A stretch of DNA of 64,000 nt from Mesorhizobium sp. WSM2240 (GTDB lineage: Bacteria; Pseudomonadota; Alphaproteobacteria; Rhizobiales; Rhizobiaceae), in contig NZ_CP159253.1 of NCBI RefSeq assembly GCF_040438645.1, positions 4,454,501 through 4,518,500 on the forward strand, given 5' to 3'. The notes beneath the pieces are model-generated. The model worked only from the letters and a program-made list of their open reading frames with translations. It made no database searches and was not told where the DNA came from. A program made the position numbers and the translations under genes. Positions 55,488 through 63,947 of the stretch are shown piece after piece. Positions within the stretch are counted from its first letter, which is position 1. Each line of letters begins with the position of its first letter.

Positions 55488-55608
55488 GGCTAAAAGTCCG
55501 GTTTTGGGGAGCCGCGAAGGCCGCACGGAGATACAAGCCGAGGCACGGATTGTCGAGAAAAAGCTTGGCCAGTTGACGCCGGCCGAGTGTGGATTTACAA
55601 GCGGGCCC

Positions 55609-55660
55609 TCGTGGTGATTTGGCCGGTCGGCTTGCAGCCACGTTAAACAACTTGCTAAAG
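55609..55660 (+). promoter_or_regulatory. SAM-II riboswitch
   Basis: TCGTGGTGATTTGG, then CTTGCAGCCACGTTAAACAA and CTTGCTAAAG match the conserved core of the SAM-II (metA) aptamer element by element. GTGGT pairs with GCCAC to form P1, and the GCTAAA tail forms the pseudoknot. It lies 65 bp upstream of metA. SAM binding would lower metA expression. A terminator hairpin follows at 55680. Confidence 0.95.
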
Positions 55661-55679
55661 GGCCGCGAAACAAGTCCGG

Positions 55680-55709
55680 AACCGGCCGCGATTTCGCAGC
55701 CGGTTTTTT
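55680..55709 (+). terminator. Riboswitch-linked terminator hairpin ahead of metA
   Basis: AACCGGC (55680-55686) and GCCGGTT (55699-55705) form a 7-bp stem with a 12-nt loop, ending in a six-base T-run (55704-55709). It lies between the SAM-II aptamer and the metA ribosome-binding site (GGAG), so it probably serves as the off-state terminator. Confidence 0.75.
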
Positions 55710-55725
55710 GTTTGGAGCTTGTACC

Positions 55726-56664
55726 ATGCCGATCAAAATTCACGATCAGCTTCCCGCTCACGAAGTACTCGTCCGCGAAGGCGTATCCGTCATGGACGAG
55801 CGGACGGCACGGCGTCAGGATATCCGCCCGCTGCAGATCGGGCTCCTGAACCTTATGCCCAACAAGATCCGCACGGAGACTCAGTTTGCACGGCTGATCG
55901 GCGCCTCGCCCCTGCAGGTTGAACTGACGCTGGTGCGAATCGGCAATCACAGGCCCAAGAACACGCCCGAGGATCACCTCATTACCTTCTACCAGACCTG
56001 GGAAGAGGTGGCGGAGCGCAAGTTTGACGGCTTCATCGTCACCGGCGCGCCCGTGGAGCTATTGCCCTTCGAGGAGGTCTCCTATTGGGAGGAACTGACG
56101 CGCATCTTCGATTGGACGACCTCTCACGTCCATTCCTCCTTCTTCATCTGCTGGGGCGCGATGGCCGCCGCGCGGCATTTCCACGGCGTTGCGAAACACA
56201 CGCTTGAGAAAAAAGCCTTCGGCGTCTTCCGTCACCGCAACCACGCTCCCGCCTCGCCTTATCTTGCCGGCTTCTCGGACGACTTCGCCATTCCCGTCTC
56301 GCGCTGGACGGAGGTGCGCGCCGCCGACATTCCCACCGGCTCTGGCCTCGAAATGCTCATGGAATCGGACGAAACCGGGCCCTGTCTGCTCGCCGAAACG
56401 ACCGGCAACCGGCTTTATATGTTCAACCACATCGAATACGATTCGACTTCGCTCAAGGAAGAATATGACCGCGATGTAGCCGCCGGGGTGTCGATCGAAG
56501 TGCCGCACGAATACTTCCCCGACGACGATCCGGCCCGCCCGCCGCTTAACCGCTGGCGTTCGCACGCCCATCTGCTCTTCGGCAACTGGATCAACCAGGT
56601 CTATCAGACCACGCCATACGAGATCGAGAAGATCGGCGAAGCCCCGCAACTCGTCATGCCGTGA
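55726..56664 (+). CDS. metA: Homoserine O-acyltransferase, MetA family (Glu111, probably acetyl)
   Basis: This 312-residue enzyme activates homoserine for methionine synthesis. The catalytic Cys142 is in [14 protein letters not shown], with His235 and Glu237 in FNHIEYD. Residue 111 is Glu in [13 protein letters not shown], whereas the succinyl-specific E. coli enzyme has Gly there. Work on Bacillus cereus MetA tied Glu at this position to acetyl-CoA use, so the product is probably O-acetylhomoserine despite the usual succinyltransferase label. It is controlled by the SAM-II riboswitch upstream. GGAG precedes the ATG. Confidence 0.94.
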
Positions 56665-62841: not shown

Positions 62842-63138
62842 ATGTCCCGCGCTTGTGAACTGACCGGCAAGGCCGTTATGTCCGGCAACAATGTGAGCCA
62901 CGCCAACAACAAGACGCGTCGCCGCTTCCTGCCCAATCTCCTCAACGTGACGCTGATCTCGGAGGCGCTGAACCAGAATGTGCGCCTGCGCATTTCGGCC
63001 AACGCACTGCGCACAGTCGAGCACCGCGGCGGCCTCGACGCTTTCCTGGCCAAGGCCGATGTCGCCGAGCTTTCACAGCGCGCGCGCCTGTTGAAGAAGC
63101 AGATCGCCAAGAAGGCCGCCGAACAGGCCGCCGCCTAA
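62842..63138 (+). CDS. rpmB: 50S ribosomal protein L28
   Basis: This 98-residue protein starts [27 protein letters not shown], the standard opening of alphaproteobacterial L28, continues [24 protein letters not shown] and ends in an Ala/Lys-rich tail. The start is ATG 62842. It stands alone and is divergent from the DUF3108 gene. Confidence 0.97.
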
Positions 63139-63168: not shown

Positions 63169-63241
63169 GAGCTTGGTCCGTTCCGATAGCATCGAAATAG
63201 GCCAGGCTTCGCTTCACGGAGCGCCGTCTTTCAAGACCGCT

Positions 63242-63274
63242 CCCTGGTTCCATTACCCAGGCTAAAAAAATGAA
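63242..63274 (+). promoter_or_regulatory. PreQ1-I-like riboswitch overlapping the start codon
   Basis: CCTGG (63243-63247) pairs with CCAGG (63257-63261) as P1. The loop TTC-CATT-A-C follows the preQ1-I pattern, with L1 UUC and a C directly before P1' in the ligand position. The tail C-T-A7 is the A-rich L3. The loop CATT (63251-63254) can pair with AATG (63269-63272), which includes the transporter's ATG. Its place before a queuosine-precursor transporter supports it. Effector binding is inferred from sequence. Confidence 0.75.
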
Positions 63275-63947
63275 ATTCTCTTCCGCATATCTGCCTTTCG
63301 TGGCCGTCATGGCGCTTGTCGTCGTGGCATCGAACATCCTGGTACAGTTCCCCGTCGCGGGGCAGATCGGCGACCTGTCGCTCGCCGACCTTCTGACCTG
63401 GGGCGCCTTCGCCTATCCGTTCGCCTTCCTGGTCACCGATCTCGCCAACCGCCGCTACGGCCCCGAAATGGCGCGCCGCGTCGTGTTCGCCGGTTTCATG
63501 GTGGCGGTCGTCTGCTCGATTCTCATCCCGCCGCTGATGTTCCGCTACGGGCTGATCGGCTTCGATACCGCAGCCGACAGGCTGGCGCGCATCGCGATCG
63601 CGTCCGGTTCGGCCTTCCTGCTGGCCCAGCTTCTCGACATCACCGTCTTCAACCGGCTGCGCCGGCAAAGCTGGTGGCGCGCGCCGGTCATCGGCTCGCT
63701 GACCGGATCGGTGCTCGACACCGCAATGTTCTTCACAATCGCATTCGCCAGCGCCTTCGCCTTCGTCGGCCCCGACGATGCGTTCGCACTGGAGGCGGCG
63801 CCGCTGCTAGGCGTGCTGCCCGTCGAGGCGGCGCGCTGGATGTCATGGGCGCTGGGCGACCTTGCCGTGAAGCTTCTGATCGCCGTCTTCGCGCTGATCC
63901 CCTACCGGCTGATCGCGGCGCGCTGGAGTCAGCCCGCACTGGCTTAG
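63270..63947 (+). CDS. yhhQ: Queuosine precursor transporter, YhhQ family
   Basis: This 225-residue inner-membrane protein has about six membrane segments and the YhhQ/DUF165 blocks ADLLTWGAFAYPFAFLVTDLANRRYG and LFAQLLDITVFNRLR-like LLAQLLDITVFNRLR, ending with SVLDTAMFFTIAF and LLIAVFALIPYR. It imports preQ0/preQ1-type bases for tRNA queuosine. The only start is the ATG at 63270, whose bases form part of the preQ1-I-like element, and the AGG in P1' is the only ribosome-site-like sequence. Confidence 0.92.
   Translation: MKFSSAYLPFVAVMALVVVASNILVQFPVAGQIGDLSLADLLTWGAFAYPFAFLVTDLANRRYGPEMARRVVFAGFMVAVVCSILIPPLMFRYGLIGFDTAADRLARIAIASGSAFLLAQLLDITVFNRLRRQSWWRAPVIGSLTGSVLDTAMFFTIAFASAFAFVGPDDAFALEAAPLLGVLPVEAARWMSWALGDLAVKLLIAVFALIPYRLIAARWSQPALA

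Follow-up and report, generated by a model that had tools for sequence, protein, structure and literature searches.

The window (the whole 64,000-nucleotide stretch of Mesorhizobium sp. WSM2240 analysed here) carries rpmB followed by yhhQ, a gene order common to S. meliloti and Rhizobium. The product of yhhQ matched Pfam Vut_1 over its cut-off (E 3.1e-26) and TIGR00697 at 102.4 bits (cut-off 50.95); against NF008406 it scored 124.6 bits, under the cut-off of 252. Directly upstream of yhhQ and running into its start codon lies a short element, 63243-63272, which reads CCUGG-UUC-CAU-UA-C-CCAGG-CUAAAAAA-AUG. An earlier note had described this block as a preQ1-I aptamer, and the UUC L1, the C before P1' and the A-rich L3 that it listed were all found at their places in the window. 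The features are as follows:

62842..63138, + strand: rpmB (ribosomal protein L28), the upstream neighbor of yhhQ, outside the putative switch
63243..63247, + strand: 5' strand of P1, CCUGG, with the conserved core CUGG at 63244-63247
63248..63250, + strand: L1, UUC (UUC, UGG or UGC in relatives)
63251..63253, + strand: predicted 5' strand of P2, CAU, an anti-start-codon complementary to AUG
63254..63255, + strand: L2, the two nucleotides UA
63256, + strand: C preceding P1'; judged against the E. coli loop, it occupies the place of the C that gives preQ1-I aptamers their ligand specificity
63257..63261, + strand: 3' strand of P1, CCAGG, with the core CCAG at 63257-63260
63259..63261, + strand: Shine-Dalgarno-like AGG within P1', 8 nt before the AUG
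63262..63269, + strand: L3, A-rich, CUAAAAAA
63270..63272, + strand: AUG, the yhhQ start codon and predicted 3' strand of P2
63270..63947, + strand: yhhQ, queuosine-precursor (preQ0/preQ1) transporter of 225 aa, YhhQ/Vut_1 family (Pfam, TIGR00697)

In the parts of PMC10622847 and PMC11625349 available to us, the C before P1' is assigned ligand specificity in preQ1-I aptamers. A second riboswitch of the window, a SAM_alpha (SAM-II) element at 55601-55678 on the + strand (76.5 bits), is ordinary in this group; it lies just 5' of a frame within 55708-56664 that reads as homoserine O-succinyltransferase (MetA)-like.

The P1 hairpin appears in both the minimum-energy and the centroid fold of the yhhQ leader and alone amounts to -5.4 kcal/mol. 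When folded without the pseudoknot, the start codon is unpaired with values of 0.91 (A), 0.88 (U) and 0.47 (G). The folding-energy signal of the leader was not significant (z -1.06), as computed by a program unable to handle pseudoknots. A UUC-type descriptor, modelled on gammaproteobacterial elements and recovering five of six of them, had one match in the 64-kb window and none in 200 mononucleotide shuffles of it. We also built a covariance model of the variant, R1, from the window and 14 of 16 family relatives. At E<=0.001, R1 matched 152 of 171 genomes of the window's family (Rhizobiaceae), covering 98 of 109 genera with one match per genome; since 14 family members and the window served as training, part of this tally is self-recognition. 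Because the descriptor match is unique in the window and absent from the shuffles, and because the variant model recurs in these family genomes, the window element is confirmed as real, beyond chance.

The element follows the gene. YhhQ was detected (E<=1e-20) in 163 of the 171 family genomes, and R1 matched 152 of these and none of the eight without it; in the sampled family, the block is found only where yhhQ is detected. Eleven genomes have YhhQ with no R1 match. In one of them, G103, the element is present in diverged form and its L3 is longer (L176); on reading, the element was absent from five (G006, G058, G084, G125 and G163), a sixth (G092, locus L110) had no descriptor match, and G008, G094, G112 and G168 were left out of the reading. 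Among 20 named relatives found by protein, 16 have the block (L005-L020), and it is absent from Roseibium, Pacificibacter, Hansschlegelia and Chelatococcus. In a plasmid collection, 21 records had a YhhQ match; of the four opened, those of S. meliloti Ak57, Rhizobium sp. NLR16a and Shinella sp. PSBB067 contain the element, and that of Pseudorhodobacter turbinis does not.

In the wider order and class, genes of the YhhQ family are frequent, with matches over cut-off in 192 of 297 and 115 of 240 genomes, respectively. Across 397 genomes of the order, all 19 R1 matches with E<=1.3e-5 fell in the window's family and 10 more genomes had weak matches; across 289 genomes of the class, the only strong match was the window's own genome, with weak matches in 20. 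The weak non-family matches (10 + 20 genomes, E 0.003-0.1) were rejected, being mostly AGGAUAAAAAAAUG-like ribosome-binding sites without P1 or loop, and none of those shown opens a YhhQ-like frame. One of them, near position 1501 of locus L064 in another alphaproteobacterium (E 0.026), contains an exact CTGGTTCCATTAC and an insertion before CCAG; no YhhQ-like frame follows, and the match is probably due to chance. The UUC-type descriptor found none among 55 non-family alphaproteobacterial yhhQ loci; elements of a UGG type would go unnoticed by that descriptor, though not by R1, which was run on other draws of genomes. In 70 genomes from the class to which G990 belongs, an AUG-type pattern matched once (L245).

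To describe conservation, we parsed one element per genome in 159 family genomes, comprising 149 of the 152 R1-positive genomes, nine more and the diverged copy in G103. This parse required only a complementary four-base-pair P1 ending in GG and then a U; CAU and AUG were not demanded, and no genome failed the P1 requirement. It superseded a first parse (132 loci, some genomes repeated) in which both motifs had been demanded. CAU/AUG was kept in all 159 genomes, as was the C before P1', and the loop ends in AC in 142. The P1 core is CUGG/CCAG in 158 genomes and CCGG/CCGG in one (L187). The earlier note had drawn longer helices. Its five-base-pair P1, CCUGG/CCAGG, is there in the window, but relatives keep only four pairs: the fifth is standard in 18 of 159 (C-G 3, G-C 3, U-G 12) and mismatched in 141 (A-G 77, G-G 64). 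Similarly, its P2 of CAUU/AAUG holds for three pairs but not for the fourth, U63254-A63269, since the position of U63254 is C in 109 genomes, U in 30 and A in 20. The covariation anticipated at 63269-63270 does not occur within the family, where the AUG never varies. The conserved predicted helices are thus P1, CUGG/CCAG (4 bp), and P2, CAU/AUG (3 bp).

The distance between CCAG and AUG is 9 nt in 150 of 159. L1 is UUC in 86 genomes, UGG in 62 and UGC in 11, so that the second loop U is replaced by G in 73. These 73 elements (for example L017, L018 and L020) possibly have a distinct binding pocket. The AGG in P1' is kept in 155 genomes; L187 has GGG, and in L176, L178 and L188 the sequence reads AGC and the fifth P1 pair is G-C. 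In 16 aligned leaders, the invariant columns span P1 to the AUG and none lies beyond. The AUG of the element opens a YhhQ-like frame in 156 of the 159 by blastp, and by reading in L187 too. In L176 and L188 it is out of frame with yhhQ, whose in-frame ATG lies 13 nt further on, and CAU/AUG is still kept. This is the pattern that a structural constraint on P2, beyond the start-codon role, would produce, in two cases for which a sequencing frameshift or a recent change is possible. In L187, from a 2.0-Mb genome, the yhhQ frame opened by the AUG of the element (200-228) is extended at its N-terminus by about 50 residues.

Known preQ1-I switches offer a close counterpart before the same gene. Subtypes of preQ1-I, including type III, were reportedly defined by McCown in 2014. 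For the type III element of E. coli yhhQ, the available part of PMC10622847 reports a co-crystal structure and switching in cells. The yhhQ leader of E. coli K-12 reads UUGGG-UUCCCUCAC-CCCAA-UGGUUAAUCAAA-AAGG, and its loop and linker are those of the element in that partial text, which gives P2 as U11-A28, C10-G29 and C9-G30, identifies A27-A28-G29-G30 as the Shine-Dalgarno sequence and has A27 and preQ1 form a triple with the second loop U. The G that replaces this U in 73 of 159 family genomes counts against a type III-like reading. Compared with the E. coli loop, the window loop, UUCCAUUAC, has two differing positions and the loop most frequent in the family, UUCCAUCAC, has one; the difference common to both is compensated in P2. 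UUC-type family loops read U-U-C-C-A-U-(C/U/A)-A-C, with A rather than C at position 10 and with A-U-G rather than A-G-G as the partner.

A search of 60 genomes of the phylum with a gammaproteobacterial pattern gave 13 matches in 11 genomes. Five (L234-L238) precede YhhQ-like frames and were used; the other eight (L232, L233, L239-L244) have no such frame just downstream and were dropped. Together with E. coli, these five leaders follow xxGGG-UUCCCU(C/A)AC-CCCxx-A-rich-AAGG. A MAFFT alignment of family and gammaproteobacterial elements had a ragged 3' end and shifted the gammaproteobacterial loops, and pairs were therefore counted by parsing. The second P2 pair is C-G in all six gammaproteobacterial elements and A-U in all 159 family genomes; the third P1 pair is G-C in all six, and U-A (158) or C-G (one, L187) in the family. 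The covariation of the predicted P2 thus lies between the two groups, as a single group difference, and within the family P2 is invariant, as a start codon would be.

The likeness to type III extends over the same gene, the P1-loop-P1' layout, the loop UUCC(C/A)U(C/U)AC, the A-rich L3, a three-base P2 straight after the A run, and U, C and A at the pocket positions. The window has the UU beside the 5' strand of P1 (UU in 86 and UG in 73 of the 159 family genomes) and the AC before its 3' strand. More generally, it has the preQ1-I architecture (P1, a short L1 beginning with U, pairing of a loop strand with the 3' tail, the C and an A-rich L3), for which the pairing is indicated by complementarity and one compensated difference, and it precedes a queuosine/preQ1 gene. 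There are also differences. The 3' strand of P2 is AUG (AAUG) instead of the Shine-Dalgarno AAGG, an AGG stands in P1', L3 is nearly fixed in length whereas the gammaproteobacterial linker varies, the conserved P1 has 4 bp and L1 may be UGG or UGC. Moreover, the variant sits in an alphaproteobacterial family, whereas PMC10622847, in the part available, places type III almost exclusively in gammaproteobacteria.

Two other switches are more distant. With type II (T. tengcongensis), the element shares the class I pseudoknot, the A-rich L3 and the C before P1', but the P2 partner there is the Shine-Dalgarno region. Members with a UGG loop presumably share G8-C9-A10 with the T. tengcongensis loop. 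The SAM-II riboswitch of metA in Sinorhizobium meliloti is likewise an alphaproteobacterial pseudoknot with a nearby AUG and translational control, but it has another ligand and fold, its pseudoknot reportedly targets GAGG, the Shine-Dalgarno sequence, and its aptamer ends before AUG1 (PMC9373788, available part).

Covariance models gave a graded answer. The Rfam preQ1-I model RF00522, suggested as a check by the earlier note, aligned to 63238-63277 with 17.6 bits (E 1.9), below its gathering score of 39, and with cmscan none of 20 loci, 19 of them relatives, reached any threshold. This failure does not discriminate for type III, because the characterized E. coli K-12 yhhQ leader has no RF00522 match either at E up to 10; the gathering score was accordingly dropped as a yes/no test. 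Over 297 family genomes, RF00522 gave two sites with E<=0.001, both under the cut-off: L025 (1501-1543, 31.6 bits), which reads as a type II preQ1-I element preceding a QueD-like frame, not yhhQ, and L026 (1501-1543, 30.1 bits), which on reading resembles L025 but lies on the minus strand.

A second model, R2, was built from the six gammaproteobacterial type III elements alone. In the window it ranked 63243-63272 first (17.9 bits, rough E 0.0052; next E 2.7). Applied to 55 family element loci at E<=10, it found 15 of 15 UUC, five of seven UGC and one of 33 UGG members; UGG members fail recognition by the type III model. An off-site match occurred in L200 (E 0.033). In the reverse search, R1 recovered the core of the gammaproteobacterial loci only at E 1.8 or worse, which counts against homology.

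Taken together, the anatomy, the conservation, the association with yhhQ and the change compensated relative to the gammaproteobacterial elements are features of the sequences themselves, and they are very probably explained by a type III-like preQ1-I riboswitch that represses yhhQ translation through a start-codon expression platform. The comparison with type III and the yhhQ association thereby support the core of the earlier proposal, an aptamer with the yhhQ AUG in P2 and the AGG in P1'. By analogy with the riboswitch class, at low preQ1 levels the 3' tail, A-rich and bearing the AUG, would be free and ribosomes would initiate. Binding of preQ1 between P1 and the loop would dock the tail along P1, the loop CAU would then pair with the AUG while the AGG is held in P1', and initiation would be blocked. 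Uptake of preQ0/preQ1 would stop, and abundant product would thus switch the transporter off. The genome of the window encodes QueF and QueC, and preQ1 is therefore probably made inside the cell. On a 145-kb contig of this genome (C3, near 127-131 kb), QueE-, QueD- and QueC-like frames adjoin a diverged YhhQ-family protein (named by reading, except QueC); the first parse returned no element at this locus (L004).

Among other explanations, an aptamer of the same fold may sense a different 7-deazaguanine or purine, such as preQ0 or guanine, especially in UGG and UGC members, thus departing from the preferred reading in ligand only. YhhQ is reported to carry preQ0 besides preQ1 (PMC10622847, available part), 73 of 159 genomes have an L1 unlike that of type III, and UGG/UGC members may differ in affinity or specificity. 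In the characterized E. coli relative, whose loop is nearly identical, preQ0 binding is however weaker than preQ1 binding by a factor of about 138 according to the same partial source, and we regard another ligand as unlikely. Alternatively, the element may be a preQ1-I riboswitch that acts solely through the Shine-Dalgarno AGG in P1', the CAU/AUG complementarity being incidental. This would account for the AGG in 155 of 159 genomes, 8 nt from an AUG whose position spacing alone could fix. Such a reading would have to accommodate L176, L178 and L188, which lose the AGG and keep CAU/AUG, the AUG of L176 and L188 that is not the in-frame start, and a loop CAU that has no translational role of its own and yet is invariant in 159 of 159, and it seems to us quite improbable. 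A further possibility is a site bound by a protein, either a DNA operator with CTGG-N9-CCAG as its inverted repeat or a stretch of mRNA recognized by a repressor, for instance ribosomal protein L28. This fits the perfect CTGG/CCAG symmetry, preserved by the sole P1 change to CCGG/CCGG, and the upstream rpmB. It does not explain why the spacer is nearly identical to the loop of the E. coli aptamer, nor the A run and CAU/AUG, and R1 has no match in the eight family genomes without detectable yhhQ; it is very unlikely.

Within the riboswitch reading, the element would plausibly, on balance, represent a new preQ1-I subtype, in which the A of the AUG forms the ceiling pair of the pocket, the metabolite stacks directly under the start codon, and the AGG-less L176, L178 and L188 switch by P2 alone, without a Shine-Dalgarno sequence in P1'. 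In the available parts of the literature, including PMC11625349, PMC3766115, PMC10907184, PMC8632094 and PMC9373788, we found neither a preQ1-I element with the start codon as P2 nor type III elements described in the window's family; the subtype-defining 2014 paper may mention either.

Neither the E. coli type III example nor the family variant is picked up by the Rfam model. If our reading is true, one compensated base-pair change converts Shine-Dalgarno occlusion to start-codon occlusion, and whether burial of the AUG alone stops initiation becomes testable; riboswitches in mRNAs without a Shine-Dalgarno sequence are named as a topic in the available part of a 2024 review (PMC11625349). An unannotated riboswitch of about 30 nt would then be present in most of the members sampled from this large family of soil and root-nodule bacteria, S. 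meliloti included.
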